Of a DNA stretch of 53,840 nt, positions 21,866 to 37,740 are shown in pieces. The stretch is from a bacterium (lineage in GTDB: Bacteria; Sysuimicrobiota; Sysuimicrobiia; Sysuimicrobiales; Segetimicrobiaceae): assembly GCA_035945995.1 (NCBI GenBank), contig DASYZR010000163.1, forward strand, positions 1 through 53,840. The letters run 5' to 3'. A model generated the notes under the pieces. The model ran no database searches, was not told where the DNA came from, and worked only from the letters and a program-made list of their open reading frames with translations. Each line of letters begins with the position of its first letter. Positions within the stretch are counted from its first letter, which is position 1. The position numbers and the translations under genes were made by a program.

Positions 21866-22663
21866 GTGACGCCGAAACTGGAAGCGGTGGACATCACCGT
21901 CCTCTACGAGAACCCGCGGACCGGGACCGCCACGCTCGCCCTCGACGGCTTCTCGGTTGACGTGCACGCGGGCGAGTTCCTCTGCCTGGTCGGGCCGAGC
22001 GGGTGCGGGAAGACGACGTTCCTGCACTGCCTGGACGGGCTGCTGCCGCTCACCCGGGGCACCATCCGGCTGGACGGCAGGCCGATCGCGGGGCCGGGGC
22101 GGGACCGGGCGATGGTCTTCCAGAGCCCGTCGCTGCTGCCGTGGCGGACGGTGCTGCGCAACGTCACGTACGGGCTCGAGCTGCAGCGCACGCCGCTGCG
22201 CGACGCGATCGCGCGGGCCCGGCAGATGATCGCGCTCGTGGGCCTCGAGGGCTTCGAACGCTACCACCCGTTCGAGCTGTCCGGCGGGATGCAGCAGCGC
22301 GTCAACCTCGCGCGCGCGCTCGTGATGGACGCCGACGTCGTGCTCCTCGACGAGCCCTTCGCGTCCCTCGACGCGCAAACGCGGGAGTTCATGCAGGCCG
22401 AACTGATGCGCATCTGGCAGGAGACCCGCCGGACGGCCGTGTTCATCACGCACCAGATCAACGAGGCGATCTACCTGGCCGACCGCGTCGTCGTCTTGTC
22501 GCGGCGGCCCGGCCGGGTGAAGAGCGTTCTGCCCGTCGAGCTGCCCCGGCCGCGTGAGCTGCGCGTGAAGCGGACGCCGCCGTTCCTCGAGCTCGAAGAT
22601 CACATCTGGGGCCTCATCGAGGAGGAGGTCCGGGCGGATCTTCGGAGTCCCGCGCATGCTTGA
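21866..22663 (+). CDS. NitT/TauT-type ABC transporter ATP-binding protein
   Basis: 265 residues from GTG 21866. Walker A GPSGCGKTT at 43-51, Q-loop in MVFQSPSLLPWRTVLRNV, signature ELSGGMQQRVNLARAL and Walker B VVLLDEPFASLDAQT are all present, with the SsuB/TauB hallmark LLPWRTVL. It powers uptake of a small anion such as a sulfonate or aromatic acid at the inner membrane. It overlaps its permease by 8 nt. No receptor gene is adjacent, whereas two NMT1-type receptors (8930, 12388) lack an ATPase, so they may work together. Confidence 0.9.
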   Translation: MTPKLEAVDITVLYENPRTGTATLALDGFSVDVHAGEFLCLVGPSGCGKTTFLHCLDGLLPLTRGTIRLDGRPIAGPGRDRAMVFQSPSLLPWRTVLRNVTYGLELQRTPLRDAIARARQMIALVGLEGFERYHPFELSGGMQQRVNLARALVMDADVVLLDEPFASLDAQTREFMQAELMRIWQETRRTAVFITHQINEAIYLADRVVVLSRRPGRVKSVLPVELPRPRELRVKRTPPFLELEDHIWGLIEEEVRADLRSPAHA

Positions 22664-23498
22664 CGAGAAGACGTTGACGGCCTCCGCCGAGCAGGCGGCC
22701 CGTCTCCCCATGCTGCCGGCCCGCCGGCGGACGTCGCCCGCGCTGCGCTCGCGGACGATCAGTACCATCGCGGTGGCGGTGTTCCTGATCGCCTGGGAGG
22801 GCGTCGTGCGGCTCGGCGGCGCGAACCCGCTGTTCACGAGCTCGCCGACGCGGATCGTCAACATGTTCGCGCAGATGCTGCACGAGGGCGTCCTCGCCAA
22901 GGACATCCGGGTCAGCGGGACCGAGTTTCTCATCGGGTACTCGCTCGCCATCGTCGTCGGCGTGCTGGTGGGCGTCGGGACGGGGTGGTATCGGGACGTG
23001 TCGGCCGCTCTGCAGCCGTTCGTCTCGGCCCTGTACTCCACCCCGCGCATCGCGCTGCTGCCGCTGCTCATCATTTGGCTCGGGATCGGGATCTGGTCGA
23101 AGATCGCGGTGGTGTTTCTCGTGGCCGTGTTCCAGATCCTCATCAACACGGAAGCCGGCGTGCGCGCCGCGGACGAGGCGCTCATCAAGACCGCCCGGTC
23201 ATTCGGGGCCAACGACTGGCAGATCTTCACGACCATTGTCGTCCCCGGGGCGGTGCCGTTTCTGATCGCGGGGCTGCGCCTGGGGCTCGGCCAGGCGCTC
23301 GTCGGCATCGTGGTCGGCGAGCTCTACGCGGCCACGGCCGGCATCGGCTACGAGATCGCGGTGGCCGGCGAGACGTTCCAGACCGACCGCGTGTTTGTGG
23401 GCATCGTGATTCTCGCGACGGCCGCGATCTTTCTGATGTGGTGCCTGCGGCGGCTGGAAGTTCGCTTCGAGGCCTGGAGACCGCAGCGCCTCGGCTGA
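22656..23498 (+). CDS. NitT/TauT-type ABC transporter permease
   Basis: 280 residues with about six membrane segments. The EAA loop region reads ADEALIKTARSFGANDWQIF, matching the SsuC/TauC permease family, and the N-terminus has the cytosolic proline/arginine-rich stretch common there. ATG 22656 lies inside the last codons of the ATPase gene. It forms the channel for the ATPase at 21866. Confidence 0.9.
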   Translation: MLDEKTLTASAEQAARLPMLPARRRTSPALRSRTISTIAVAVFLIAWEGVVRLGGANPLFTSSPTRIVNMFAQMLHEGVLAKDIRVSGTEFLIGYSLAIVVGVLVGVGTGWYRDVSAALQPFVSALYSTPRIALLPLLIIWLGIGIWSKIAVVFLVAVFQILINTEAGVRAADEALIKTARSFGANDWQIFTTIVVPGAVPFLIAGLRLGLGQALVGIVVGELYAATAGIGYEIAVAGETFQTDRVFVGIVILATAAIFLMWCLRRLEVRFEAWRPQRLG

Positions 23499-23518: not shown

Positions 23519-24016
23519 TCAGCCGTCGGGGCCGGGCCAGTCACGCAGCTCGGCCAGGACCGCCTGCTCGATCGCCCTGAGCGCGCCGGCGTCGGGGCCC
23601 CGCCACTCGTACGCGAGCGGTGCCACCGCGACCGGCGGCCACGCCTGATCCTTGATCTCCGCGACCGCCAGTTCCCACATCGCCATGGCGAACGGGGATG
23701 CGGCGACGCGCCCGCGGCATTCCCGGGCCGGGCCCTTGATGAGCGCGACGAGATCATCCCGGCCGATCACCTGCAGCGCCGCCTTGCCGGTCCGGGCGAG
23801 GTTCGCTTCGGTCGCGCTCCCGCGGTCGGCGATGAATCGCACGCGGTCCCTGGCCCGCGGCCGGGCCGCAGCCGGGGCCCCCTGGGCGGGGGCCAGGGCC
23901 ACGGCCCAGGTCATGGCCGCATGTCCCCACCCGTCGGCACCGACGGTGACCAGGATGGCGGGAACGCCGGAGGCGAGCGCGCGGGCAAGCCGGGAGCAGA
24001 GCGTCGTGCCGGTCAC
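23519..24016 (-). CDS. Pyridoxamine 5'-phosphate oxidase-like (split-barrel flavoprotein) family protein
   Basis: 165 residues from GTG 24016, which overlaps the amidohydrolase stop (GTGA). The N-terminal part (ALASGVPAILVTVGADGWGH, MTWAVAL) and the middle segment FIADRGSATEANLARTGKAAL look like the split-barrel FMN-binding fold of PNPOx-like proteins. The fold is used by flavin reductases, haem-degrading enzymes and many unassigned oxidoreductases. It is the last gene of the 32713-23519 operon. A flavin-linked partner for the UbiD enzyme of the operon is imaginable but unproven. Confidence 0.6.
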   Translation of the reverse strand: MTGTTLCSRLARALASGVPAILVTVGADGWGHAAMTWAVALAPAQGAPAAARPRARDRVRFIADRGSATEANLARTGKAALQVIGRDDLVALIKGPARECRGRVAASPFAMAMWELAVAEIKDQAWPPVAVAPLAYEWRGPDAGALRAIEQAVLAELRDWPGPDG

Positions 24017-25026
24017 CGCGCGACTCCCCGGACGCGGCGGAGCAGCCGCGCCGCCGTCCCGCCGAGGATGCCTTCCGCCGTCTCGGGCGGCAGCCCGGCG
24101 TCGCGGATCAGGGCGGCGTAGTCGCGAATCCCGGCGACGCCTTTGCCGGTCTGCGTGGTGGCCCCGGTGAAGTCCTGCGGGTAGTCGGTCGCAAAGACCA
24201 GCCGGTCCGGCCGGATCGTCTCGAGCGCGCACCGGAACGCGCCCGGTCCTCCCTCGAACCCGGCCGTGTCGAAGTAGAGCCGGTCGAACGACTCCGCAAA
24301 CGGCCGGCGGAGCGTGCCGAACCGCCCCGCCTTGGCGACGAGGCGCTCCTTGACCGCGGCGATGCCGCCCCCGAAATGCGCGAAGACGAGCACGAGCTCC
24401 GGGAACTCTTCGAGCACGCGGCCCGCGATCACGCGGGTGACGGCCAGCTGGAGGTCAAGCTCCCGTCCCAGGATCCGCGCCAGGTCGTAATCGCCGCAGA
24501 ACGGGTAGCCGGCGGGGAGCTGCGCGGGATGAACGAAGACCGGCAGGCCGCGCGCGGAGGCCAGCCGGTAGAAGGGGACCAGGGCGTCTGCGTCCAGCGG
24601 CAGCCCGTTCACCTGCGAGGTGATCGTGGCGCCGCGCAGTCCCAGATCCTGGACCGCGCGCTCGATCTCCGCGAGCCCGGCCGGCTCGAGGATCGGCGCG
24701 TGCGCGAGCCCGAGGAACCGCTCCGGATGCCGGCGCTGGAGCTCCGCCGCCCGGTCGTTGATCAGCCGGCAGTCGTCGAGCGGCGCATCCCACCCGAGGT
24801 TGCAGGACAGGACCGCCACATCGATGCCGGCCGCATCCATGTCCCGCAACTGGAGATCGAGATCGTACAGGCGGTTGTGCAGGGTGAGCTTCGGCACGCC
24901 GCCTTCGATGAGGTTGCGCCGCTCGCCGGCGCCGAATCCGCGCCGCTCGACCAGCTCGAACGGGACGAAGTGGTGCTGCACGTCGACGACCATCGGCCCG
25001 GTCCGCGGGTCTTGGCTCGCCGTCAT
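24013..25026 (-). CDS. Amidohydrolase 2 (ACMSD-like) family protein
   Basis: 337 residues from ATG 25026, overlapping the ThDP gene's stop (ATGA). TIM-barrel metal-dependent hydrolase: N-terminal VVDVQHHFVP (metal His pair H18/H19 in place of the usual HxH), LPVFVHPAQLP, LVFAHFGGGIAAVKERL and the C-terminal FATDYPQDF aspartate. This group includes 2-amino-3-carboxymuconate semialdehyde decarboxylase, gamma-resorcylate decarboxylase and OMA hydratase, all acting on ring-derived acids. Beside UbiD and CoA-transferases it supports an aromatic or heteroaromatic degradation locus. Confidence 0.82.
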   Translation of the reverse strand: MTASQDPRTGPMVVDVQHHFVPFELVERRGFGAGERRNLIEGGVPKLTLHNRLYDLDLQLRDMDAAGIDVAVLSCNLGWDAPLDDCRLINDRAAELQRRHPERFLGLAHAPILEPAGLAEIERAVQDLGLRGATITSQVNGLPLDADALVPFYRLASARGLPVFVHPAQLPAGYPFCGDYDLARILGRELDLQLAVTRVIAGRVLEEFPELVLVFAHFGGGIAAVKERLVAKAGRFGTLRRPFAESFDRLYFDTAGFEGGPGAFRCALETIRPDRLVFATDYPQDFTGATTQTGKGVAGIRDYAALIRDAGLPPETAEGILGGTAARLLRRVRGVAR

Positions 25027-26801
25027 GTCACGGCGATGACCACGTCGAGCAGCGCCGGCCGCCCCTCGTCCTTGACGGCGCGGACCGCCCGCCGGAGCGC
25101 GGGACCGAGGAGCGACGGATCGTCGATCGGCCCGTCGGCCTCCACGCCGAAGGCGCGCGCCATTCCGGCGAAATCGACGGCCGGATCGTCGATCCGAATG
25201 CCGACCGTCCGGTTCTCCACCGGACGGCCCCGTGCGCGGGCGATGAGCGTCTGATGGTGCTCGTCGTTCGCGTACGAGTGGTTGTTGCAGATCACGAACA
25301 ACACCGGGAGCCGGTGGTGCGCCGCGGTCCACAGGGCGCTGGGGGTGTAGAGGAGGTCCCCGTCGGCCTGCAGGTCGAGACAGATCGTGCCGGTCCCCCG
25401 GTAGGCGAGGGCGGCGCCGATCGAGGCCCCCGCGCCGTAGCCGAGTCCCGCCCCGCCGCTGCCGCCGAGGTATTGCTCGGGCCGGGTCCACTCCCACAGA
25501 TCCCGCGCCCAGCCGTCGAGGCCGCCGTTCGCGAGCACCCAGTCTTCGTCCCGCAGCACGTCCCACATCTCGGCCGCGAGCCGCGCCGGCGACATCGGCC
25601 GGTCTTCCCACCGTTCCTCGCAGCGCGTCCGGGCCTCTCGACGGAGCGCCTCGTGGCGCGTCCGGAGCCGGTCGGCGCGCGCGCGGTGCGCGGCGCCGCC
25701 GGCGGGCTCCGCTTCCAGCAGCGTCGCGAGCGCCGGAAGGGCGACCGCGGTGTCCGCGAGGATCGGCAGATCCACGGGATGCAGCCGCCCGTACGTCTGC
25801 GCCCACGACCGGGCCGCCGGTTCGTTCAGCGAAATGTGCACCACGCGGGCGGCGTCGCCGATCAGGGGGCGCGCGCGGCGCGTCGTGCGATCCACCGTCC
25901 CGAGCGCGCGCTGCAGGTCGACGACGTCGAGCGCGAGGATCAGGTCGGCCTCGCCCAAGATCTCCGCCTCGGCGCCGGTGAGGTCGAGGGGATGGGTGGT
26001 CGGAAAATTGAACCGGCCGTGCCCGTACCCGTCGATGACGGGGGCTGCGGCGAGTTCCGCGAGGCGGACGAGGGCGGCGGCGGCGGCCCGGTTCCGGCCG
26101 ACGTACTCCGCCACGATCACGGGCCGCTCCGCGCGCCGAAGCAGCGCCGCGGCCTCCTCGAGGGCCGCCGGCGCCGCCTGGATCGGGGAGGGCGCCGCGT
26201 AGCGCGCGACGTCGGGGATGGCGATCGGCTCGTCGAGCGTCGTCTCCTGCAGGTCCGCGTCGAAGCACACGTAGACCGGGCCCTGCGGTTCGGTCGTGGC
26301 GATCCGGTAGCCTCGGATGAGCGCTTCGGGAATCGACCCGAGGCTGGCCGGCTGGTCGTCCCACTTCACGTAGTCGCGCACGGCCTGGCCCTGCACGAGC
26401 GCGGTGTGGATCCAGTCGATCCAGGGCCGCCGCCGCTCGACGGCCATGGGCCCGGTGCCGCCGAGGACCAGTATCGGAACCCGGTCGCACCAGGCATTGT
26501 AGATCGCCATGCTGGCGTGCTGCAGGCCGACGAGATCGTGGACGATCGCGGCCATTGGTTTGCCGGCCGCTTTGGCATAGCCGTGCGCGATCGCGACCGC
26601 GATTTCTTCGTGGCAGCACTGGATGAGCGCCGGCCGCCCCGGGGCCAGGCCGCCGCCGTAGTTCACGACCGAGTCGTGAATGCCGCGAAAGGTCGCGCCG
26701 GGGTTGAGCGCGGCGTACTCGATGCCGAGCGCCCGCAGCACGTCGACGATCAGGTCGGACCCGTACGCCGGTCCCGCGCCGCGCTCCGCTCCGTGTGTCA
26801 T
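25023..26801 (-). CDS. Thiamine pyrophosphate-dependent enzyme (paralogue of 10596-12362)
   Basis: 592 residues from ATG 26801, overlapping the transporter stop (ATGA). Same three-domain layout as the enzyme at 10596: N-terminal CCHEEIAVAIAHGYAKA with the activating Glu, middle domain with LILALDVVDLQRALGTVDRT, and C-terminal GDLLYTPSALWTAAHH followed by CNN for Mg/ThDP. The N-terminal 170 residues are, by eye, about 70% identical to the paralogue, so they probably share chemistry on related substrates. Family members decarboxylate 2-oxo acids or form acetolactate-type products. Its place between UbiD and the amidohydrolase suggests a step in the same pathway. Confidence 0.85.
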   Translation of the reverse strand: MTHGAERGAGPAYGSDLIVDVLRALGIEYAALNPGATFRGIHDSVVNYGGGLAPGRPALIQCCHEEIAVAIAHGYAKAAGKPMAAIVHDLVGLQHASMAIYNAWCDRVPILVLGGTGPMAVERRRPWIDWIHTALVQGQAVRDYVKWDDQPASLGSIPEALIRGYRIATTEPQGPVYVCFDADLQETTLDEPIAIPDVARYAAPSPIQAAPAALEEAAALLRRAERPVIVAEYVGRNRAAAAALVRLAELAAAPVIDGYGHGRFNFPTTHPLDLTGAEAEILGEADLILALDVVDLQRALGTVDRTTRRARPLIGDAARVVHISLNEPAARSWAQTYGRLHPVDLPILADTAVALPALATLLEAEPAGGAAHRARADRLRTRHEALRREARTRCEERWEDRPMSPARLAAEMWDVLRDEDWVLANGGLDGWARDLWEWTRPEQYLGGSGGAGLGYGAGASIGAALAYRGTGTICLDLQADGDLLYTPSALWTAAHHRLPVLFVICNNHSYANDEHHQTLIARARGRPVENRTVGIRIDDPAVDFAGMARAFGVEADGPIDDPSLLGPALRRAVRAVKDEGRPALLDVVIAVT

Positions 26802-27802
26802 GGCCGTTCTTCGATCCGCAGCAGTCGCCACGCCCCGTACGAAAGCGACCAGGTCGCCACGAAGAGCCCGACGAGCAGGTACCCGAGCCGGCCGAAATCG
26901 AGCATCTGCAGCCGGCCCCAGACGCCGGCGGTGAGCCCGAGCGCCTGGGCGGCGGCTTGGGCGAGCTCGATGCCCCCGACGAGGAGCGCCGCGACGACCG
27001 AGAGTCCGGTCACGGTGAGATTGTAATACACTTTGCGGATCGGCGTGGCGAACGCCCACCGGTAGGCCGTGGTCATGAAGATGCCGTCGGCGGTGTCCAT
27101 GAGGCTCATCCCCGAGGCAAACAGCAGCGGCAGGGCCAGCACGCCCCAGACGGGCAGCGCGCTGGCGGCGGCGCCCGCGGCCAGCGCGAGCAGCGCCACC
27201 TCGCTGGCCGTGTCGAACCCCAGGCCGAACAGAAAGCCCAGCGGATAGGCATGCCAGCCGCGGCTGATGAGGCGGACGAGCGGGGCGGCCGCCCGCATGA
27301 CGAGGCCCCGCGAGTCCAACAGGGCCTCGAGCGCCGTCGCGTCGTGGCGGCCGCGGCGCATCCGTTGAAAGATGAGGTAGATGTCGAGCCAAATGAAGAG
27401 GTTGATCACGCCGATGAGGATGAGAAACCCGCCCGACACCGTGGTGCCGATCAGGCCCCCGAGCGTGCGGAGATGCGGCAGCGCCTGCTCCGTCCCGTGC
27501 GTCAGCGCGACCGCGGCGGCGGCCATGAGGAAGACGACCGTGGAGTGGCCGAGCGAGAAATAGAAGCCGACGCCGAGGGCGGCCCGCCCGCGGCGGGCCA
27601 GCCGGCGGACGACGTTGTCGATCGCCGTGATATGGTCGGCGTCGAACGCGTGGCGCAGCCCGAGCGTGTAGGCGAGAAACCCCATCCCGAGCAGCGCGGG
27701 ATGCGCCCGGGCCGCCGCGAGCAGGGCCGCCAGCCCGCCGGCGTGCAGCGCGAGAATCGCGGCCCCGTAGCCCGCCCACGCCGGCCGGACCTTCGCCGTC
27801 AC
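26798..27802 (-). CDS. NiCoT-family nickel/cobalt transporter
   Basis: 334 residues from GTG 27802. The signature RHAFDADHI (residues 50-58) in the second membrane segment, FGLGFDTASEVALLAL and GMSLMDTADGIF are the diagnostic motifs of the HoxN/NixA family, with about eight membrane helices. It imports Ni2+ or Co2+ across the inner membrane. A metal importer inside a catabolic operon suggests that a pathway enzyme needs nickel or cobalt, for example the amidohydrolase or a B12 enzyme served by the EutA-like reactivase nearby. Ends in an ATGA overlap with the ThDP gene. Confidence 0.93.
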   Translation of the reverse strand: MTAKVRPAWAGYGAAILALHAGGLAALLAAARAHPALLGMGFLAYTLGLRHAFDADHITAIDNVVRRLARRGRAALGVGFYFSLGHSTVVFLMAAAAVALTHGTEQALPHLRTLGGLIGTTVSGGFLILIGVINLFIWLDIYLIFQRMRRGRHDATALEALLDSRGLVMRAAAPLVRLISRGWHAYPLGFLFGLGFDTASEVALLALAAGAAASALPVWGVLALPLLFASGMSLMDTADGIFMTTAYRWAFATPIRKVYYNLTVTGLSVVAALLVGGIELAQAAAQALGLTAGVWGRLQMLDFGRLGYLLVGLFVATWSLSYGAWRLLRIEERP

Positions 27803-27842
27803 CCCCGGCCCCCCGCCGGCCGCGTACGCGCCCGCCGCATGC

Positions 27843-29405
27843 CTACCGTCCGGTGCGCGCGAGCAACTCGACCCATCCCCGCATCAGGGCCTTGCCCTTC
27901 GCAATCTGCTCGGCGTCGAAGAATTTGTCGAGGCCCACCGTCTGGATGGGGTAGACCGGCCGCTGGAAGTCCTTCTCGTATCCGTACGGGACCGTCGCGT
28001 CGATCGCCATGCCGCCCTCGAAGCGGGTGTTCATGGCGGTCCACTGGCGGTCGCCCGCGGTGAGCCGTTCCTCGGGCATGAAGGTCTGGCCGGCGCCGCC
28101 CGGCACCGGGTTCAGGATGTCGTTGCGCGGGTTCACGCGGGTCGTCAGACACCAGATGATCTCGTCCATGTTGTAGATGTCGACGTCCTGATCCACCGCG
28201 ATCGCGAGCCGCATCCCGTGGCTCGTGGCCATGGTGGCGGCCAGGAAGTTGCGGACGTGGCCGTCGTCGGTCTTGAGCCGCTTCTTCACCTGGAAGATGC
28301 AGCCGCCCCAGTCGGTCATGCAAAAGGGGATGTTGACGTCCTGGACGATGCCGGGCTGCAGCCGCTCGCACAGTTCGTAGATCGCCGACTCGCGCACCGT
28401 CGTGTCGATGTTGTTGCAGTCGAGCATGTGCACGCCGAGCAGGTAGAAGATCGGCTTCGTCGCGCGGCGCCGCATCGTGATCCCCGTGACGTGGAACGTC
28501 GGCGCGCGGTACGCCTTCCCCATGTAGCCGGCCCACTCCGGGTGGAAGGGGAACCGCCCCTGGACGTCCGCGGCCTCGGCCTCCGCGGTCTCGTAGCGCT
28601 TGTCCCGCGGGTGGAGCAGGCCTTCGAGGACCAGCTCGCAGTCCGCCACGGCCCAGGCGTCGACGGTCCGCGCCCGGACGATCCGGATCGGAGCGCCCTG
28701 CGCGGCCCCGGCGGCGCCGAGCTCGTCGCCGCCGCGCGGCAGGATCACGTAGTCGAACCCGCCGCCGGCGATCAGCGTGGCGGCCGGCGGGAGGCCGAAG
28801 CACATCGTCAGCGGGATCGGCTGCTCGTCGTGATAGTGCTCGGTGATGACCTGCCACATGTGCGAACCGGGGGCGGACTGAAACGTGCAGACGTTCCCCC
28901 ATCGGGCGTTCATCCGGTTGTAGCCGATGTGGCTGCCGCCGTGGAAATAGGGCCCGACCACGACGCTGTTCCCGCTCCCGATCGTCCGCTCGGACTCGAG
29001 CTCCGTGTGGCGGATCGCGATCACGTGCTTGTTCACGTCGAGGTCGCCGGTGAGGACCTCTTCCTGGCACGGCGCGTCGGCCTGCGGGATTTCGACCGGC
29101 GGGATCGGGTGCGTGAGGGCGTGGGCAAGGCGGTGGGTGCGTTCCACCGGCGAGCTCCAGCCGAACAGCCGGTCCACGATCCCCATGTTCGCAAAGAGGT
29201 TGGTGACCGCCTGGGCGGCGGGATAGCCCTTCACGTTCTTGAACAGCAGCGGGTAGCTGCCGTCCAGGTGCTTCTGCACGCCGGTGACCTCGAGGTCCGG
29301 GTCGATCGGGACCTCCGTTTCCAGGAGCAGGCCTTCCTGCCTGAGCCACTCGAGCGTGCCGCGCAGCGACTGAATGCCGCGCTCGACCTTCACCTGCGTC
29401 GCCAT
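27843..29405 (-). CDS. UbiD-family prenylated-FMN decarboxylase
   Basis: 520 residues from ATG 29405 with GAGGAGG upstream. Begins with LRGTLEWLRQEGLLLE, the UbiD N-terminus, and contains RIVRARTVDAWAVADCELVLEG and FPFHPEWAGYMGKAYRAP in place of the usual E-G-P-F-G-E-x-x-G-Y region, then a long C-terminal domain ending with GLDKFFDAEQIAKGKALM. UbiD enzymes need prenylated FMN from UbiX, which is not encoded in the window. The altered active-site loop (HPEWAGYMG) suggests a distant branch such as phenylphosphate carboxylase or AroY-like enzymes. It follows the CoA-transferases by 46 bases. Confidence 0.85.
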   Translation of the reverse strand: MATQVKVERGIQSLRGTLEWLRQEGLLLETEVPIDPDLEVTGVQKHLDGSYPLLFKNVKGYPAAQAVTNLFANMGIVDRLFGWSSPVERTHRLAHALTHPIPPVEIPQADAPCQEEVLTGDLDVNKHVIAIRHTELESERTIGSGNSVVVGPYFHGGSHIGYNRMNARWGNVCTFQSAPGSHMWQVITEHYHDEQPIPLTMCFGLPPAATLIAGGGFDYVILPRGGDELGAAGAAQGAPIRIVRARTVDAWAVADCELVLEGLLHPRDKRYETAEAEAADVQGRFPFHPEWAGYMGKAYRAPTFHVTGITMRRRATKPIFYLLGVHMLDCNNIDTTVRESAIYELCERLQPGIVQDVNIPFCMTDWGGCIFQVKKRLKTDDGHVRNFLAATMATSHGMRLAIAVDQDVDIYNMDEIIWCLTTRVNPRNDILNPVPGGAGQTFMPEERLTAGDRQWTAMNTRFEGGMAIDATVPYGYEKDFQRPVYPIQTVGLDKFFDAEQIAKGKALMRGWVELLARTGR

Positions 29406-29451
29406 GGCGTGCCTCCTCTCGCCGCCCTCGGGTGCCGTCCCCCTGCGGGGC

Positions 29452-30663
29452 TCACTCGATGACGCCGTCTCGTGTCAACCGCGCGATCTCGTCCTCGCGG
29501 AGCCCCAGAATGTCGCGGTACACCATCGCGTTGTGCTCGCCGAGCAGCGGGCTGCGGTACAACGCGGCCGGCGTCTCCGACAGGAGGAACGGCGGCGCTT
29601 CGTAGGAGAACCGGCCCAGCTCCGGATGCTCGAGCTCCCGCCAGGTGAGCCGGTGGCGCAACTGCGGGTCGTCGAACAGGTCGGAAAGGCGGTTCACGAC
29701 GCCGGCCCGCACGCCCGCGGCCTGGAGCGCGTCCATCACCTCGCGGGCGTCGCGCTCCGACGTCCATCCGCGGACGAGGGCGTCGAGCGCGTCCTCGTGC
29801 GCCTTGCGGGCGGCGAGCGACGCGAACCGCGCGTCGGCGGTCCACTCCGGGTGGCCGGCCGTCTCACAGAACCGGCGCCACTCGTCCTCCGAGCAGACCG
29901 CGATGACGCACCACCGGTCCTCGCCGCGGCAGGGATACGCGCCGTGCGGCGCGCCATGCGCGCTCCGATTCCCCGCCCGCATGCGGAGCCGTCCCGTGAG
30001 CTCGTACTCGAGCAACGCCGGTGCGATGAACTGCAGCCCGCTCTCGTATTGCGACAGGTCGATGTGCTGTCCCTGCCCGGTGCGCCGGCGATGGTCGAGC
30101 GCGGCCAGCACCGCGACCAGCCCGAACCCGACCGCCACGAAATCGATGTACGGCCCGAAGAGCAGCATCGGGTCGCCGTCCGCCTCGCCGGCGAGAAAGG
30201 TGAACCCGCTCTGCGACGTGAGCTGCGACCCGAACCCCCGCTGGCCGGCCTTCGGGCCGGTCTGGCCCATGTTGCACGAGCTCAGGTAGACGATCGAGGG
30301 GTTCATCGCGCGCGCGGCCTCGTAGCCGAGGCCGTTGCGGGCCATCACGCCGGGGACGAAGTTCTCGATCAGCACGTCGGCCCACGCCACCAGGCGGGCG
30401 GCCAGGCCGAGCGCCTGCGGATGCTTGAGGTTCAGCGTGACGCCGAGCTTGCTGTCGTTGAAGATGGCGAAGGTGCCGGTGCGGTTGAGCCCGGGGATGT
30501 TGTCTTTGTAGGGGGGATAGTGAACGCGGAACCCGTCCGGCCGCGACCGCGACTCCACGCGGACGACCACGGCCCCGTGCTCGCCCAGATGTTTGCCGAC
30601 GGTGGGGCCCGCCGCGAACACGCCGAACTCGACGACCCGGATGCCGGCGAGGGCCACCGTCAC
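29452..30663 (-). CDS. Class III (CaiB/BaiF) CoA-transferase
   Basis: 403 residues from GTG 30663, overlapping the upstream stop (GTGA). N-terminal IRVVEFGVFAAGPTVGKHLGEHGA, then DSKLGVTLNLKHPQALGL and a VLIENFVPGVMARNGLGYE segment are family landmarks; the C-terminal tail includes LLGEHNAMVYRDILGL. Class III CoA-transferases move CoA between carboxylic acids, such as formyl-CoA/oxalate, carnitine, benzylsuccinate or phenyllactate pairs. Paired with a second family member upstream, it may be one subunit of a heteromeric enzyme (as in BbsEF or SmtAB) or act on a different acid. Confidence 0.9.
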   Translation of the reverse strand: MTVALAGIRVVEFGVFAAGPTVGKHLGEHGAVVVRVESRSRPDGFRVHYPPYKDNIPGLNRTGTFAIFNDSKLGVTLNLKHPQALGLAARLVAWADVLIENFVPGVMARNGLGYEAARAMNPSIVYLSSCNMGQTGPKAGQRGFGSQLTSQSGFTFLAGEADGDPMLLFGPYIDFVAVGFGLVAVLAALDHRRRTGQGQHIDLSQYESGLQFIAPALLEYELTGRLRMRAGNRSAHGAPHGAYPCRGEDRWCVIAVCSEDEWRRFCETAGHPEWTADARFASLAARKAHEDALDALVRGWTSERDAREVMDALQAAGVRAGVVNRLSDLFDDPQLRHRLTWRELEHPELGRFSYEAPPFLLSETPAALYRSPLLGEHNAMVYRDILGLREDEIARLTRDGVIE

Positions 30664-31931
30664 ACCACACCCTCCCGCCGCAGCCGCGCGAGATCGTCCC
30701 CCGAGAGCTCCAGTTCCCCGCGATAGATCTCCTCGTTGTGCTCGCCGATGCCCGGGGCGCCGCGCCGGATCGCCGCGGGCGTCGCCGAGAACCGGGCGAA
30801 CGGGCCGGGGTAGGTGACCGCGGTGCGGTCGCGCGGGTGGTCCACGGCCTGCCAGAAGTCCCGGGCGGCCAGCTGCGGGTCCGTGCGGATGTCCCGCGCG
30901 TCGGCCACCGGGTAGCCCAGGATGCCGTACGCCAGCGACGCGGCGGAGAACTCGGCCTTGGTCCGCCGCGCCAGAAACGCGGCGAGGGGCCGCTCGATCT
31001 CGTCGACCTCGTCCTGCGCGGCGCTCGCCACGTTGAAGGCACCCCAGTCCTTGTGCCGAAGCCACTCCGGCGCCTCGCCCGATGCGGTCATCCAGCGCAC
31101 CAGGCCCTCGTTGGACCGGCGCCCCGCCTCGCCGCCGTAGAGAATGAAGTTGATGTGGCCGTCGCGGCAGCGGTAGATCGCGCGCATGGCCGCGCCGCTC
31201 GTGCTGCGCCCCACGATGCGGGTCCCGCCCCGCTGCAGGTCGGCGCGCCCCAGGCTCCAGTACGCCGGCGCGTTGGCGAGCGCCCACAAGAGGCTGGACT
31301 GCATCGAGACGTCCACCTGCTGGCCGCGGCCGGTGGTCTCGCGATGGTAGTGCGCGGTCAGCGTCCCGGCGGCCGCGTACATGCCGGTCCACATCGGCGC
31401 CTGGGGCAGCGAGACCCGGAGCGGGGGACGGCCGGGTTCGCCGACGAGCGACATGAAGCCGCTCATCGCCATCGCGACCAGGTCCGTGCCCCTGTACGCC
31501 GCGTACGGCCCGCTCTGGCCGAACGGCGTGATGGAGGTGACGATGAGCCGGGGATTGAGCGCCCGGAGGTCGCGATAGCCGGCGCCGCAGGCGTCGAGGT
31601 GTCCGGGCGGAAACGTTTCGATGAGGAAGTCCGCCCGCGCCGCGAGCCGCCGCAGCAGCTCCCGCCCCGGGGCCGAGGCCACGGCCAGCGTGATCCCCCG
31701 TTTGTTCGCGTTGTAGGCAAGCCACGGCAGGCCGCGCTCCGGGTCGGGCTCGTCGCCGGCGAACGGACCCACGAACCGGCCGTCATCGCCGCCGGGCGGC
31801 TCCACTTTGACGACGTCGCAGCCGAGATCGCCCAGGATGCGTCCGCACAGCCACCCGTTCCGGTCGGTGAGGTCGAGAACCCGGTAGGAGCGCAGCGGAC
31901 CCGACGGCGGCTGAGGCACGCGCGGTGTCAC
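30660..31931 (-). CDS. Class III (CaiB/BaiF) CoA-transferase
   Basis: 423 residues from GTG 31931, overlapping the regulator's stop (GTGA). Reads SYRVLDLTDRNGWLCGRILGDLGCDVVKVEPP, with NANKRGITLAVASAPGRELL, DFLIETFPPGHLDACG and a C-terminal GIGEHNEEIYRGEL, all typical of the family. It differs from the following gene across the whole length, so the two are old paralogues and could be the two subunits of a heterodimer. Expected role: activating a carboxylic acid substrate to its CoA thioester with an acyl-CoA donor. Confidence 0.9.
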   Translation of the reverse strand: MTPRVPQPPSGPLRSYRVLDLTDRNGWLCGRILGDLGCDVVKVEPPGGDDGRFVGPFAGDEPDPERGLPWLAYNANKRGITLAVASAPGRELLRRLAARADFLIETFPPGHLDACGAGYRDLRALNPRLIVTSITPFGQSGPYAAYRGTDLVAMAMSGFMSLVGEPGRPPLRVSLPQAPMWTGMYAAAGTLTAHYHRETTGRGQQVDVSMQSSLLWALANAPAYWSLGRADLQRGGTRIVGRSTSGAAMRAIYRCRDGHINFILYGGEAGRRSNEGLVRWMTASGEAPEWLRHKDWGAFNVASAAQDEVDEIERPLAAFLARRTKAEFSAASLAYGILGYPVADARDIRTDPQLAARDFWQAVDHPRDRTAVTYPGPFARFSATPAAIRRGAPGIGEHNEEIYRGELELSGDDLARLRREGVV

Positions 31932-32713
31932 ACCCGGGGATCCGTGCCGGCCCGCGGCCGCCTCGCCCGTACCGGAGCGCCGGGGCGCGCGGCCGGGCGG
32001 GGCGAGTCGACGTCCCCTGCGGTGGGACTTACCCGGGCGGCGAAGTAGGAGACGTGCTCCTGCATCAGGCGCCTCGCCCGCTCGCCGTCCCGCGCGCGGA
32101 TCGCTTCGAGAATGCGTTGATGATCGTCGACGGCGCGCTCCGCCATGTCGTCGGCCGGCAGCAGCGCGGCGAGGGCTTCGTGGAACAGCGCCCGGAACGA
32201 GTTGACGGTGAAGAACAGCACGGGATTCTTCGCCGCCTCCGCCAGCGCCAGGTGGAACGCTACGCTGGTGGGGATGAAGTAGCGGTCGCCGGCCGCGCGG
32301 CCGGCGCGGGCCGCGGCGATCGCCTCCTCCATGGCCCGCAGATCTTCGGCGGTCGCGCGCCGCGCGGCGATGTCGGCCACGTGGGGCTCGACGAGGATCC
32401 GGGCCTCGACGAGATGTCGCAGCGTCGCCTGCTTGAGCCGGAGCATGTTGGCGAGGGATTCGCTCACCGGCAGGGTGCTCGGCCGGGCGACGAAGGCGCC
32501 GCCGCGCGCGCCGACTTTGATGTTGATCAGCCCCTGCGATTCGAGCACGCGCAGTCCGTCCCGGACAGTGATCCGGCTGACCTGGAACTGCCCGGCCAGG
32601 TCCTTCTCGGACGGCAGCGCGTCGGTGGGCTTGAGGTGGCCGTCGAAGATCAGGTCCTTGATCTGGCGGATGATCCCGTCGGACGCCCGGGTCGCGCGGA
32701 CAGGCTGAAACAT
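31928..32713 (-). CDS. GntR-family regulator (FCD domain)
   Basis: 261 residues from ATG 32713, chosen for GGAGG eight bases upstream. Residues about 10-75 form the winged helix: IIRQIKDLIFDGHLKPTDALPSEKDLAGQFQVSR then TVRDGLRVLESQGLI. Residues about 90-230 are an all-helical FCD ligand domain with the metal-binding pattern AFHLALAEAAKNPVL and EHVSYFAAR. FCD regulators usually repress and are released by an organic acid. As first gene of the 32713-23519 operon, with a palindrome just upstream, it likely controls its own operon. An arginine/proline-rich tail follows the FCD domain. Confidence 0.9.
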   Translation of the reverse strand: MFQPVRATRASDGIIRQIKDLIFDGHLKPTDALPSEKDLAGQFQVSRITVRDGLRVLESQGLINIKVGARGGAFVARPSTLPVSESLANMLRLKQATLRHLVEARILVEPHVADIAARRATAEDLRAMEEAIAAARAGRAAGDRYFIPTSVAFHLALAEAAKNPVLFFTVNSFRALFHEALAALLPADDMAERAVDDHQRILEAIRARDGERARRLMQEHVSYFAARVSPTAGDVDSPRPAARPGAPVRARRPRAGTDPRV

Positions 32714-32745
32714 CGAACGCCCCTCCGGTGAGCACGGCACGAAAT

Positions 32746-32760
32746 GTATGATATTTATAC
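32746..32760 (-). promoter_or_regulatory. Candidate GntR operator
   Basis: GTATGATATTTATAC, with perfect arms GTAT and ATAC around 7 bases, lies about 33 bases before the regulator gene and is the only AT-rich spot in this gap. FCD-type GntR proteins typically bind short palindromes of this kind near their own promoter. Confidence 0.45.
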
Positions 32761-32824
32761 GTTTCGCCGGCCGACACCTGCCGGCCGCGGCCCGGCGGGG
32801 ATCGATCCTTCCGGCGAACGCCGG

Positions 32825-34303
32825 CTAGTGGAACACGAGGCTCTTGACGACCACCGGGACGACGTTCTGTTCGAGCATGAGGCTGCCGATGTCCACGTAG
32901 TCGAATTCGCGCAGCGCGATCTGGTCGATGCACACGAGCGGTCCGCGGACGCCGTACTCCTCCCTGAGCGTCCCGCCAATGAGGCCGGCCACGTCGGCGT
33001 CGATCACGAGCAGCAGCGGGCGGCCCGACGCCACCGTCTCCGGCAGCGCGTCCACGATCCCGCCGCACAGCGCGGCCAGCGCGGGATACTGCGGTCCGTG
33101 GTGCCAGTGGATCGCGAGCGCGAACCGGTCCTGCCCGTCCGTCAGGTCCAGCCGCCGCAGCCCCCGGCGCACCGCGTCGGCGACACGGTCGGGCGAGGGG
33201 CGGTCCAGGCCGCGGACGGCCGCGACGGGGACGTTCCGCACCGGCAGCAGGCCCGCGTCCGACAGAAAGATCGTGTTGCCGCTCACCTGCACGGTGTACT
33301 GGGAGGCGCCGATGCAGGTCGCGCGAATGCGTTCCCGCGGCTCCAGGACCACGCGGCCCCGGCAGCGCGCGAGAATCGCGCGGGCCAGCCGCGGCCCGAG
33401 GTCGCCGAACTCCGCGGCCTCGCACCCGTAGATGTACTCCGCGACGCCCCCGGAGAACACGAGATGCGTGAACGGGCCGGGGGTCCCGAGGCGCTCCGTG
33501 ATCCACAGACCGTCGTCGCCGTTCGTGGGCGCCCGTCCGTCGATGACGCGGACGACGAGATCGGCCATGCGGTTCGCGACCGCGTCCAGGAGCTCGGCCG
33601 GCGGGCGGCGGCCGACGGCCGCGTCCCCGCCGGCCTCGTCGGCAAACGCGCGTCCGCGCGCCTCGACGCGCTGCAGCACGCCGTCCGGCCCCCAGGCGAG
33701 CAGACGCGCGCCAGCGTGGATCGCCGCCGTTTCCTGGACGGCGCCCTTCCGGCAGACCGCGAACTTCGTGGTCCCGCCGCCGATGTCCACGTTGAGGACG
33801 GTCGGGTGCTGCGGTTCCCGGGACATCGCGGCGGCGCCCGAGCCGTGCGCCGCGAGCAGGCTCTCGAGATGCGGCCCGGCCGTGGCGCACACGAACTTCC
33901 CGGCGTCCGCCGAAAACAGCTGAATGATCGGCGCCGCGTTGTCCTTCATCGCGGCTTCGCCGGTGGTGATGACCGCCCCCGAATCGATGTCCGACCGGGC
34001 CAGGCCGGCCTCCCGGTACGCCTCGTCGAGAAACGCCGCGATGCGCGCGGTATCGATCTGAGACGGCGACGCATAGGGCGTCAGGATCACGCGGGAGCGG
34101 AAGGACACCTCCCGGTGCACGACCGTGTACTGGCTCGACAGATACCGCCCCTGGCGCGTCAGGACGAGGTCGGAGAAGACGAGGTGCGACGTCGAGGAGC
34201 CGATGTCGATGCCCGCGCTGCGCAGGCGGATGTGCTCGCCGACGTAGACCGCCGGGTCGGCGTCGCCGCCGAGATGGATGTGCTCATTGTCGTCTTCGTG
34301 CAT
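32825..34303 (-). CDS. EutA-like reactivase (ethanolamine ammonia-lyase reactivating factor family)
   Basis: 492 residues from ATG 34303. Actin-like ATPase fold: GIDIGSSTSHLVFSDLVL near residue 30 as phosphate loop 1, VLNVDIGGGTTKFAVC as phosphate loop 2, and HLVFSGGVAEYIYG as the adenosine motif. Sequence and order match EutA, which uses ATP to release damaged B12 from ethanolamine ammonia-lyase. No EutB/EutC or other B12 enzyme is seen in the window, so it is an orphan. A MutL-like reactivase for another B12 mutase is an alternative. It follows the bicupin gene by 7 bases, so the two are cotranscribed. Confidence 0.7.
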   Translation of the reverse strand: MHEDDNEHIHLGGDADPAVYVGEHIRLRSAGIDIGSSTSHLVFSDLVLTRQGRYLSSQYTVVHREVSFRSRVILTPYASPSQIDTARIAAFLDEAYREAGLARSDIDSGAVITTGEAAMKDNAAPIIQLFSADAGKFVCATAGPHLESLLAAHGSGAAAMSREPQHPTVLNVDIGGGTTKFAVCRKGAVQETAAIHAGARLLAWGPDGVLQRVEARGRAFADEAGGDAAVGRRPPAELLDAVANRMADLVVRVIDGRAPTNGDDGLWITERLGTPGPFTHLVFSGGVAEYIYGCEAAEFGDLGPRLARAILARCRGRVVLEPRERIRATCIGASQYTVQVSGNTIFLSDAGLLPVRNVPVAAVRGLDRPSPDRVADAVRRGLRRLDLTDGQDRFALAIHWHHGPQYPALAALCGGIVDALPETVASGRPLLLVIDADVAGLIGGTLREEYGVRGPLVCIDQIALREFDYVDIGSLMLEQNVVPVVVKSLVFH

Positions 34304-34310
34304 CCCCCCG

Positions 34311-35411
34311 CTACACCCGCACCGAAAACGCGTCCATCCGCACGGGGACCCCGCGCGCCGCGCACCGCTCCGCGAACAGGCGATGGATCCGCGGATCCTG
34401 ATCCTCGTACTCGATCTGGTTGCCGCCGTCCTTCTTGCTTTTGTCCACGCCCTGAATGTCGAGGTAGCGGGCCACCTTCCACTTGGCGCCGCCCCAGCGG
34501 ATCGCGAGGTAGCGCGCCGGCCGTGGCCCGGTGTTGAAGTGCTGGTGCCACCACATGCCCGGCGGCACAAACATCGTGCCCGGGTGCCAGGGGATGTCGG
34601 TCATGTCCGGGGCCCCGTCCGGCCACATCACCGAGAACCCCTCGCCTTCGAGGAGGATCACGTGGGCGCCGGGGCCGTGCCGGTGCGCCTTCTTGTACGT
34701 GCCGACCGGAAACTCCGAGATGTGCGCGCACAGGGTGTTGTTGGCGAACTCGAACATCACGTTCTTGCCGCCGGCGCCTCGCTCCGCCCACTCGTGCAGC
34801 TGGAAGCGGTTCACGTCGGCGACAAAGTTGGTGTCCCAGACGCGGCCCGGGTACAGGGTGCCTTCCCCCCCGAAGTAGCCGGCCCGTCCGTCGAAGCGGT
34901 CGAGGAAGTCGAACGGGCAGTTGAAGAGGAAGTCGGTGTTGTGCAGGAGGTTCATCATCATTGGCGCGGTCGTCACGCCGAGGAGCCGCGCCCGGTCCCG
35001 GCCCGAGCCGTTGTGGAGCCGGTGCGAGCAGTTGAGCGGAATCGAGAAGAGGCTGCCGGCCTGCCACTCGAACGACTGCTTCGCGCCGCCGTCGTTCCAG
35101 ACTTCACAGCCGCCGCGGCCGTCCACGACGTAGTAGAATTCTTCGAACACGTGCCGCTCGGTCGCCGTACCCTTCCCGGGCGCGAGTTCGACGATATAGG
35201 CGTTGTTCGTATCCTCGGTGCCGGCCAGCCGGAGATAGGCGCCGCGGGCCTCGAGCCGCGGCCACGGCGCGACCGCGACTTCCCGGAGATCCGGGACCGC
35301 GTAGCCCGCGACGACGGGGACGCCCTCGGATTCGAGCCACCGCTCGTACGCGCTCTTGCGCCATTCCTGCGGCAGCCGGTCTTCTTGAGCGATCCGCGCT
35401 TCACCAGCCAT
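34311..35411 (-). CDS. Bicupin protein
   Basis: 366 residues from the second of two near ATGs (35411), with GGGAGGGG properly spaced. Two cupin barrels: the first around residues 70-145 (ERHVFEEFYYVVDGRGG, candidate ligands H87, E91, H130) and the second around 225-305 (KKAHRHGPGAHVILLEGEG and WWHQHFNTGP, candidates H243, H245, H250, H289). This layout occurs in ring-cleavage dioxygenases such as gentisate 1,2-dioxygenase and in isomerases, but no closer match is evident. Its operon partner is the EutA-like gene; across the divergent gap lies a UbiD gene. Possible role: Fe(II) or Mn dioxygenase of the same catabolic locus. Confidence 0.75.
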   Translation of the reverse strand: MAGEARIAQEDRLPQEWRKSAYERWLESEGVPVVAGYAVPDLREVAVAPWPRLEARGAYLRLAGTEDTNNAYIVELAPGKGTATERHVFEEFYYVVDGRGGCEVWNDGGAKQSFEWQAGSLFSIPLNCSHRLHNGSGRDRARLLGVTTAPMMMNLLHNTDFLFNCPFDFLDRFDGRAGYFGGEGTLYPGRVWDTNFVADVNRFQLHEWAERGAGGKNVMFEFANNTLCAHISEFPVGTYKKAHRHGPGAHVILLEGEGFSVMWPDGAPDMTDIPWHPGTMFVPPGMWWHQHFNTGPRPARYLAIRWGGAKWKVARYLDIQGVDKSKKDGGNQIEYEDQDPRIHRLFAERCAARGVPVRMDAFSVRV

Positions 35412-35539
35412 CGCCATCCCCTCCCGAATGCTGCAGCGGTTCGTGCCGACGTGCCCATCATACCATCCCGCCAAGCAGGGAATCGCGGCATGAACGTGAA
35501 CCCGTGGCATCGTACGCAGCTGCAGGTGGGAGGATGGCG

Positions 35540-37018
35540 ATGAGCCAAACGATCGCCCACGGCCGGCGGACGGGGCCGTACACCGATCTCCGCGACTGGC
35601 TTCGGGCCGTCGACGAGATGGGCGAGCTGCGCCGCGTGGACGGGGCCTCGTGGGAAGAGGACATCGGCCGCGTGGCGGAGATGCTGCACCACACGGAAGA
35701 ATCACCGGCCGCGCTGTTCGACGCCGTGCCCGGCTACCCGCGCGGCTACCGGGTGCTCGTGAATCCGCTCGGCGCGCGCCGCCGGCTGGCGTTCACGCTG
35801 GGGATGGATCCCCAGATCGGCGCCTTCGACTTGATCGACGCGTGGGAGCAGCGGCTCAATCGCATCGATCCGGTGCCGGTCAAGGAAGTGCCGGACGGGC
35901 CGGTGCTCGAGAACGTCCTCGAGGGCGACGCGATCGACCTGTACAAGTTCCCGACGCCGAAGTGGCACGATCAGGACGGGGGGCGGTATATCGGGACCGC
36001 GGTGGCCGACGTGACGCGCGACCCCGATTCGCAGTGGATCAACTTCGGCACCTACCGGGTGATGATCCACGACCGCAACCGCGCCGGGCTGTACATCTCG
36101 CCCGGAAAGCACGGCCGCCTGCACCGCGACAAGTACTTCAGCCGCGGCGAGGCGATGCCGGTGCTGGCGATCGTCGGCATGGACCCGATCCTCTTCCTGG
36201 CGAGTTGTCTCGAGATCCCGCTCGGCGTGAGCGAGTACGAGTGGGCGGGGGCGGTGAAGGGCGGCCCGGTGGAGGTCATCCGCGGGCGGCACACCGGGCT
36301 CCCGCTGCCGGCGCACGCGGAGATCGTCATCGAGGGATTCGTGCACCCGAACGCGCGGCTCATGGAGGGGCCCTTCGGCGAGTGGACCGGCTACTACGCG
36401 AGCGGCAGCCGCGAGGAGCCGGTCATCGACGTGAAGGCGATCTACCACCGGAACGACCCCATCCTCATGGGGTGCCCGCCCGAGAAGCCGCCGTACGAGG
36501 CGCACCATTTCCGGAAATATCTCCGGTCCGGGTTGCTGCGCAAGGCGCTCAAAGATGCCGGCGTCCCCGGCATCACCGGCGTGTACTGCCATCCGGTCGG
36601 CGGCTGCCGGCTCCTGTACATCGTCGCCATCAAGCAGATGTACCCGGGCCACGCCCGGCAGGCCGGACTGCTCGCCTCGCAGGTGCGCGCGGGCGCCTAC
36701 CTCAACCGCATGGTGGTCGTGGTCGACGAGGACATCGACATCACCGACCTCAACGACGTGATGTGGGCCGTGCTGACGCGGGCGGACCCGGACGGCGATT
36801 ACGAAATCATCCGCCGGTGCTGGAGCGGGCCGCTCGATCCCGCGATTCACCCGGATCACAAGGGCTTCAATTCCCGGGTCATCATCGACGCGACGCGGCC
36901 GTGGGAGTGGAAGGAGCGGTTTCCGGTTCCCATCGGGCCGGACCCCGAATACAAGCGGCAGACGCGCGAGCGGTGGGGGTGGCTCCTGCGGGGGGACGGG
37001 CCGCCCGCCGCGCCCTGA
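35540..37018 (+). CDS. UbiD-family prenylated-FMN decarboxylase (second copy)
   Basis: 492 residues from ATG 35540, with GGGAGG upstream and properly spaced for the second of two ATGs. Reads TDLRDWLRAVDEMGELRRV, then DPDSQWINFGTYRVM and the active-site stretch EGPFGEWTGYYASGSREEPV with two conserved Glu. This loop fits classical UbiD/FdcA better than the copy at 27843. Needs prenylated FMN from UbiX (not in the window). Family reactions are reversible decarboxylation of aromatic or unsaturated acids. It is divergent from the bicupin-EutA pair and convergent with a class II aldolase. Confidence 0.9.
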   Translation: MSQTIAHGRRTGPYTDLRDWLRAVDEMGELRRVDGASWEEDIGRVAEMLHHTEESPAALFDAVPGYPRGYRVLVNPLGARRRLAFTLGMDPQIGAFDLIDAWEQRLNRIDPVPVKEVPDGPVLENVLEGDAIDLYKFPTPKWHDQDGGRYIGTAVADVTRDPDSQWINFGTYRVMIHDRNRAGLYISPGKHGRLHRDKYFSRGEAMPVLAIVGMDPILFLASCLEIPLGVSEYEWAGAVKGGPVEVIRGRHTGLPLPAHAEIVIEGFVHPNARLMEGPFGEWTGYYASGSREEPVIDVKAIYHRNDPILMGCPPEKPPYEAHHFRKYLRSGLLRKALKDAGVPGITGVYCHPVGGCRLLYIVAIKQMYPGHARQAGLLASQVRAGAYLNRMVVVVDEDIDITDLNDVMWAVLTRADPDGDYEIIRRCWSGPLDPAIHPDHKGFNSRVIIDATRPWEWKERFPVPIGPDPEYKRQTRERWGWLLRGDGPPAAP

Positions 37019-37035: not shown

Positions 37036-37740
37036 TTAGAGGATCCCTTCCCGCCGGCTCTTGGCGACGTAGTGGTCCCAGGTCTTCAAGACGATCGGCC
37101 GGTGCCAGAGGCTCTCCCGGACCCGGCGGACGACCTCGTCGGGGAACGGCCGCGGGGTGCCGAGCGCGGACGCCAGGAGTTGCTGCTTCGCATTTTCCTC
37201 CAGCCAGATCGCGGTCGTGAAGCACGTTTCGATGTCGTCGGCGACCACGACGGCACCGTGGCCGCGCAAGAGTGCCGCACGGCCGGATCCCAATACGCGC
37301 GCCACCGCATCGGCGTCCTCGTTCGTGCGAATGAGGTCCGGGTCGTCATATACGGGCAGGCCCTGCGTCGGAAAGATGGCGCCCAACTGAAACACCGGGA
37401 CGAGCGGCCGATCGGCAACGGTGAACGCGGTCGCGACGGCCGGATGGAGATGGGCGACGCACTGCACGTCCGGACGCGCCGCGTAGATGCGCGTGTGAAT
37501 CGGCGTCTCGATCGGCGGTTCCCCGTCTCCCCCGGCGGGCCGGCCGTCGAGATCGACGGTCACGATGTCCTCCGGCCCCACGGTGCTGCGGCCCGCCCGG
37601 CGGCTGTTGATCAACAGATGATTCGTTCCGGACAGCCGCGCGCTCAGATGCCCGTTCATGTCCATGAGCCCTTCCGCGGCCAGCAGCCGGATCGCGGTGA
37701 CGAGAGTGCTCTTGAGCGTGTGAGGATCGGCGTCGGACAC
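37036..37740 (-). CDS. Class II aldolase/adducin-family protein
   Basis: 234 residues from GTG 37740. Family landmarks: LLAAEGLMDMNGHLSAR near the N-terminus, a substrate loop INSRRAGRSTVGPEDIV, the metal pair CVAHLHPAVATAF and LLRGHGAVV with the third His. Members include fuculose- and rhamnulose-phosphate aldolases, ribulose-5-phosphate epimerase and HCOMODA decarboxylase (aromatic catabolism). Given the neighbours (UbiD, cupins, CoA-transferases), a decarboxylase or aldolase on ring-derived acids is the most likely role. Confidence 0.85.
   Translation of the reverse strand: MSDADPHTLKSTLVTAIRLLAAEGLMDMNGHLSARLSGTNHLLINSRRAGRSTVGPEDIVTVDLDGRPAGGDGEPPIETPIHTRIYAARPDVQCVAHLHPAVATAFTVADRPLVPVFQLGAIFPTQGLPVYDDPDLIRTNEDADAVARVLGSGRAALLRGHGAVVVADDIETCFTTAIWLEENAKQQLLASALGTPRPFPDEVVRRVRESLWHRPIVLKTWDHYVAKSRREGIL

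Follow-up and report, generated by a model that had tools for sequence, protein, structure and literature searches.

Predicted genes for phthalate conversion to benzoyl-CoA, followed by a second gene module, in a soil bacterium of the uncultured phylum Sysuimicrobiota

What pathway is encoded by a tightly packed operon that joins a GntR regulator to two coenzyme A (CoA)-transferases, a UbiD decarboxylase, a nickel/cobalt transporter (NiCoT), a thiamine diphosphate (ThDP) enzyme, an amidohydrolase, and a small PPOX-like protein? The operon (positions 23519 to 32713) belongs to a member of the Segetimicrobiaceae, and the window analyzed here is the entire contig that carries it (contig 163, DASYZR010000163.1; 53,840 nucleotides) in a 4.15-Mb genome that is 98.8% complete. 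A sequence-only reading had proposed that these genes form one pathway, with no named counterpart, for an aromatic or unsaturated carboxylic acid and with a need for nickel or cobalt. Here, comparison with related loci indicates that, very probably, the first four genes (GntR-CaiB1-CaiB2-UbiD) encode the known route from phthalate through phthaloyl-CoA to benzoyl-CoA and the remaining four (NiCoT-ThDP-amidohydrolase-PPOX) constitute a second module (Table 1).

All eight genes lie on the minus strand with the regulator first, exactly where the earlier reading had placed them. The mostly 4-nucleotide coupling that it described was also confirmed: from GntR to PPOX the junction distances are −4, −4, +46, +40, −4, −4, and −4 nucleotides, i.e., a 4-nucleotide overlap at 5 of 7 junctions versus 3 of the 24 other same-strand neighbors in the window. 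Both wide gaps flank the UbiD gene, and one of them is the exact meeting point of the two modules. Pfam agreed with the assigned families for seven genes (GntR plus FCD, CoA_transf_3 twice, UbiD in three domains, NicO, ThDP in three domains, and Amidohydro_2); the label "flavoprotein" proved weak for the eighth, because its PNPOx_N match (22.6 bits) falls below the cutoff of 28.1. Codon-usage scores were high for all eight genes and lowest for the PPOX-like gene, which is a weak check because seven of the eight genes trained the score.

The UbiD protein of the operon matched the solved phthaloyl-CoA decarboxylase (Pcd) sequences 8pmk and 8oz5 with 836 bits over residues 10 to 520, and the next UbiD family, protocatechuate decarboxylase, reached 147 bits. 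It is 68% identical to the protein of Aromatoleum evansii KB740 (a strain number that appears in print as KB470) and 67.5% identical to that encoded on a plasmid of Aromatoleum aromaticum EbN1. Residues R164 and E290, matched by pairwise alignment to the active-site arginine and loop glutamate of UbiD, were invariant in 80 Pcd sequences. On these similarities, the operon UbiD gene is a phthaloyl-CoA decarboxylase gene. Two family III CoA-transferase genes together with this UbiD make up the characterized succinyl-CoA:phthalate CoA-transferase/Pcd pathway (PMC13040137), and both steps are likewise described in PMC8269228. The core of the set therefore does have a named pathway, contrary to the earlier reading. 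That reading was right, however, in expecting GntR-regulated genes for the CoA activation of an aromatic carboxylic acid and its subsequent prenylated flavin mononucleotide (prFMN)-dependent decarboxylation.

The aspartate described as the nucleophile of family III CoA-transferases (PMC9196870) corresponds to Asp174 in CaiB2. It was kept in 61/61 CaiB2 relatives and absent from 50/50 CaiB1 proteins (Pro, Tyr, Ala, or other residues instead), ruling out two redundant paralogues, and the same asymmetry is present in A. evansii. At 10 of the 58 loci holding both genes, CaiB1 and CaiB2 occupy one uninterrupted open frame. The two proteins look like subunits of one heteromeric transferase, with CaiB2 as the sole catalytic subunit. 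Among solved proteins, CaiB2 is closest to one subunit of benzylsuccinate CoA-transferase (9fn0_B; 232 bits), the two-subunit family III enzyme BbsEF; in contrast to BbsEF, the Pcd partner and gene context here indicate phthalate rather than toluene, and no bbs genes were recognized in the window. We propose that CaiB1/CaiB2 would transfer CoA from succinyl-CoA to phthalate through Asp174, yielding labile phthaloyl-CoA, and that prFMN-dependent Pcd would then remove the ortho carboxylate to give benzoyl-CoA.

To place this core among its relatives, 84,980 species genomes were scanned, giving 259 candidate stretches with Pcd relatives, from which 79 loci (66 to 88% identity) were kept. CaiB1 was present in 63 and CaiB2 in 61 of these, always within 5 kb of Pcd, so that the CaiB1/CaiB2/Pcd triad is the part of the predicted gene grouping that proved conserved. 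Several loci without the pair are interrupted by contig ends, and no CaiB1 or CaiB2 was found near Pcd in some alphaproteobacterial loci (e.g., L087, L088, L090, and L091). Many environmental lineages carry Pcd, in most cases together with the transferase genes; among them are Chloroflexota, Acidobacteriota, Actinomycetota, Gemmatimonadota, and Pseudomonadota. In a tree of 80 Pcd sequences the phylum label changed 10 times (minimum possible, 7; shuffles, 37). Since the tree largely tracks phylum, Pcd as a family is unlikely to have arisen recently through industrial phthalates; judged by its tree, the family is old and spread across many phyla, with transfer within it possible.

The anaerobic o-phthalate system of Aromatoleum, Azoarcus, and Thauera shares with the present locus the two family III CoA-transferase genes adjoining Pcd, a UbiX in the genome, and a benzoyl-CoA-reductase-like cluster for the downstream step. 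The A. evansii gene order is UbiX, Pcd, CaiB1, CaiB2 (CaiB1 47% and CaiB2 52% identical to the proteins here), and on the EbN1 plasmid IclR, UbiX, and Pcd are accompanied by ATP-binding cassette (ABC) transporter genes and another UbiD. The present locus differs in its phylum, in its four appended genes, in the position of UbiX outside the cluster, and in its regulator, which is GntR here versus IclR beside the EbN1 genes; A. evansii has a regulator-like gene upstream. SsuBC-type ABC genes adjoin the operon here and the corresponding genes in the relative G006, and the EbN1 plasmid has similar ABC genes near its Pcd; in A. evansii, by contrast, the transferase is followed by genes that look TRAP-like by eye.

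In relatives from the same family, as well as in some Anaerolineae and Acidobacteria, CaiB1 or Pcd likewise has a GntR gene ahead of it. At the place matching the candidate operator of the window, TTGACA-(16)-TATAAT and an AT-rich palindromic stretch are present in four family relatives, and TTGACA with a comparable AT-rich stretch is present in the Anaerolineae locus L032; the −35 box of the window promoter is poor. GntR probably represses its own operon from this candidate palindrome over the promoter.

The ubiX gene that the earlier reading proposed to seek elsewhere in the genome was found on contig 62, as the one UbiX over cutoff (TIGR00421, 230 bits; cutoff 109); a second flavoprotein match was rejected as another UbiX, being CoaBC-like. 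This UbiX would supply prFMN to Pcd, and the type 2 isopentenyl-diphosphate isomerase gene that adjoins it may provide the prenyl donor. Type 2 isomerase genes occurred in 13/79 Pcd loci, all within 5 kb, with matches over the cutoff in the source genome and L044, and an unrelated type 1 isomerase gene lies near UbiX and Pcd on the EbN1 plasmid. The two unrelated isomerase types suggest repeated recruitment for the prFMN prenyl donor.

Benzoyl-CoA, in turn, would be dearomatized by a benzoyl-CoA-reductase-like complex encoded on contig 66 of the same genome. There, BcrB and BcrC are the best NCBIfam matches of a subunit pair, accompanied by two different activases of the BcrA/BcrD kind and by BadI/Oah-like and BadH-like genes. 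Two different activases suit benzoyl-CoA reductase (BCR) better than 2-hydroxyacyl-CoA dehydratase. In G028, Pcd shares its contig with relatives of this cluster, and in the Actinomycetota loci L056, L060, and L063 such relatives stand ∼5 to 12 kb from Pcd-CaiB1-CaiB2. The aerobic box route was rejected, as no BoxB exceeded the cutoff in 11 genomes.

Unlike the triad, the second module is not conserved beside Pcd: the ThDP gene was found in 5 of the 79 loci, NiCoT and the amidohydrolase in 1 each, and PPOX in none, and the single NiCoT stands on the far side of its cluster. The operon NiCoT is a genuine HoxN/HupN/NixA family member and is codirectional with its neighbors, as a wholly unassigned pathway needing nickel or cobalt would have it. 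Given that the core is a known pathway and that NiCoT is so rare near Pcd, this explanation was rejected for the core and is highly improbable. Moreover, NiCoT directly adjoins Pcd only in the source genome among the genomes examined, and the characterized Pcd is described as K+- and Fe2+-dependent in a title cited by PMC13040137; a nickel or cobalt requirement found no support.

Where the second module belongs is indicated by relatives. Directly behind UbiD2, a second UbiD with 24% identity to Pcd, NiCoT is found in G005, G006, and G008. In G008, of the same family as the source, UbiD2, NiCoT, ThDP, amidohydrolase, UbiD3, and PPOX share an orientation, opposite to that of cupin, EutA, GntR, CaiB1, CaiB2, and Pcd. 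G006 carries Ald2, Pcd, CaiB2, CaiB1, GntR, EutA, and cupin on the minus strand; next, on the plus strand, are UbiD2, NiCoT, ABC genes, amidohydrolase, UbiD3, and PPOX, and then ABC permease and ATPase genes (minus). Gene orders in G003 and G005 match these in their preserved parts. In these relatives the amidohydrolase has UbiD3 next and then usually PPOX, and transporter genes take the place of ThDP in G005 and G006. A 55-residue ThDP gene fragment lies between NiCoT and the amidohydrolase in G006 (C44:203408-203572; L103:7409-7573), an apparent loss. In the window, UbiD3 is missing between amidohydrolase and PPOX, and an 84% relative is present on contig 62. Inverting the Pcd-UbiD2 stretch of the relatives yields the window gene order (minus UbiD3). 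We infer that a local inversion united the second module with the Pcd genes in the source genome, bringing it under the same promoter; the junction would be the 40-nucleotide gap behind Pcd. In this light, the proposal that all eight genes form one pathway was not supported.

Several points weigh against this account at different steps. For the substrate, phthalate was assigned by homology (67 to 68% identity of Pcd to proteins of characterized degraders, and only 47% for CaiB1), and it could be a related ortho-dicarboxylate CoA ester, with the triad performing the same chemistry on, e.g., hydroxyphthalate or pyridine-2,3-dicarboxylate. However, 147 of 520 Pcd positions were invariant over the 80 sequences, A. 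evansii among them, and a review reports the CoA-transferases of strains PA01 and EbN1 to be inactive on isophthalate and terephthalate (PMC13040137); we regard another ortho-dicarboxylate as quite unlikely. Downstream, the BCR-like subunits of contig 66 score under their NCBIfam equivalog cutoffs, and G003 and G008 carry Pcd without an HGD-D pair, so that the downstream route is not uniform. As for the second module, the orientation of an aldolase gene (37036 to 37740) is at odds with one simple inversion, and the 4-nucleotide overlaps in genes 5 to 8, together with the shared strand, imply coexpression now. In addition, the CoA-transferase genes of L029, an Acidobacteria locus, are followed by an amidohydrolase relative (54%), and L039, L040, L043, L044, and L050 have ThDP relatives ∼10 kb or less from Pcd. 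The second module may thus not be wholly unrelated.

These amidohydrolase and ThDP relatives also favor an alternative in which the operon encodes one extended pathway: the ThDP enzyme and the amidohydrolase would work on a precursor that ends up as phthalate (e.g., by decarboxylation and oxidation of an aromatic 2-oxo acid with an ortho carboxylate), and CaiB1/CaiB2 and Pcd would convert this phthalate to benzoyl-CoA. The tight overlaps and single direction of the eight genes fit this alternative, as does benzoylformate decarboxylase being the nearest solved ThDP enzyme. The five ThDP-Pcd loci occur despite only one or two ThDP copies (E ≤ 1e-100) in their genomes, and L050 is an array in one direction (substrate-binding protein, ThDP, ABC ATPase, permease, Pcd, CaiB1, CaiB2, isomerase). 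Because L040, L043, and L044 are close kin, the five represent about three independent cases, a modest association that looks nonrandom and falls short of proof for a shared pathway. Against this alternative, the ThDP subfamily is widespread in the phylum irrespective of Pcd, several times beside EutA and cupin genes; NiCoT-ThDP-amidohydrolase stands behind UbiD2 in G008, with ThDP replaced in G005 and G006; and none of the four second-module genes was found beside Pcd in A. evansii. A single extended pathway is therefore unlikely. Improbable to the same degree is an undescribed feeder branch, in which these two enzymes would produce phthalate, or something closely similar, out of some larger aromatic of natural origin; the branch would be functionally tied to the phthaloyl-CoA route in each of two phyla, and the present operon would be the fused version.

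Two second-module enzymes depart from their solved relatives. The ThDP gene shares three domains with the benzoylformate decarboxylase/formolase family, and a Glu and a following His, which we take to be catalytic, align; however, the match amounts to about 100 bits only. Its best NCBIfam match is the uncharacterized ThDP protein PRK08327, below the cutoff, and no plasmid relatives were found at E ≤ 1e-80. A second ThDP gene in the window (10596 to 12362; 64% identical) follows an isochorismatase-family gene between two NMT1-type binding-protein genes, with a molybdenum hydroxylase set next. The amidohydrolase has ACMSD as its best solved match at only 86 bits, beginning at residue 26, and bears the N-terminal motif DVQHH (DFQHH in G006 and G008), in which Gln replaces the first His; a metal-binding HxH motif is expected for ACMSD.

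Upstream of the operon are EutA-like, double-cupin, and UbiD2 genes (32825 to 37018), a combination found again close to Pcd in Chloroflexota and Proteobacteria (EutA in 13/79 and cupin in 17/79 loci). EutA-cupin genes also lie near ThDP in L143, L144, and L147, loci showing no Pcd. EutB was absent in 12/12 genomes tested (E. coli control positive); the name EutA is therefore misleading here, and an ethanolamine/B12 enzyme accounting for NiCoT was rejected. No solved relative of the cupin protein was found by sequence. An IS110-family transposase gene (6580 to 7641) lies ∼16 kb from the operon.

Table 1. Features of the operon, its surroundings, and related loci
Feature	Position	Strand	Evidence
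GntR/FCD regulator, first gene of phthalate module	31928-32713	-	Pfam FCD 93 bits, GntR 57 bits
CaiB1, probable noncatalytic subunit, succinyl-CoA:phthalate CoA-transferase (SptA/SptB type)	30660-31931	-	CoA_transf_3 291 bits
CaiB2, putative catalytic subunit of same CoA-transferase, Asp174	29452-30663	-	CoA_transf_3 341 bits
Phthaloyl-CoA decarboxylase (Pcd), UbiD family, predicted prFMN-dependent	27843-29405	-	PDB 8pmk/8oz5 836 bits
NiCoT nickel/cobalt transporter, first gene of second module	26798-27802	-	TIGR00802 351 bits, cutoff 333
ThDP-dependent 2-oxo-acid decarboxylase/carboligase-like enzyme	25023-26801	-	Pfam; nearest solved relative benzoylformate decarboxylase
Amidohydrolase_2 protein (ACMSD/5-carboxyvanillate decarboxylase superfamily)	24013-25026	-	Pfam
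Small PPOX-like protein	23519-24016	-	Subthreshold PNPOx_N; ends second module in G003, G006, G008
SsuB/SsuC-type ABC ATPase and permease, candidate uptake system, abuts operon	21866-23498	+	Pfam ABC_tran, BPD_transp_1
UbiD2, second canonical UbiD decarboxylase	35534-37018	+	Pfam UbiD 225 bits
EutA-like ASKHA protein	32825-34303	-	Pfam
Double-cupin protein	34311-35474	-	Pfam
AT-rich imperfect palindrome CGAAACGTATaaatatcATACATTTCG, candidate GntR operator overlapping promoter	32740-32766	-	9 matching pairs in arms
Isopentenyl-diphosphate isomerases	L112:13825-14982 (own contig 62); L044:13980-15137; L155:4264-4833		Beside UbiX or Pcd genes
Divergent benzoyl-CoA-reductase-like BcrCBAD cluster	L125:3693-9797 (own contig 66)		

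Phthalate is a plasticizer acid, and its CoA-dependent pathway has been characterized in denitrifying members of the Proteobacteria, as has a version that uses a ligase in sulfate reducers. The terms aromatic, phthal-, and benzoyl- do not occur in the genome paper on Sysuimicrobiota (PMC11604079). The pathway is now placed in the Segetimicrobiaceae of this uncultured phylum, in a soil bacterium. What had appeared to be an unassigned pathway is thus mostly an already known one. Testable predictions follow for the subunit roles of the transferase and for the supply of the prFMN prenyl donor, and the spread of Pcd suggests that natural phthalate-like substrates exist for the family.

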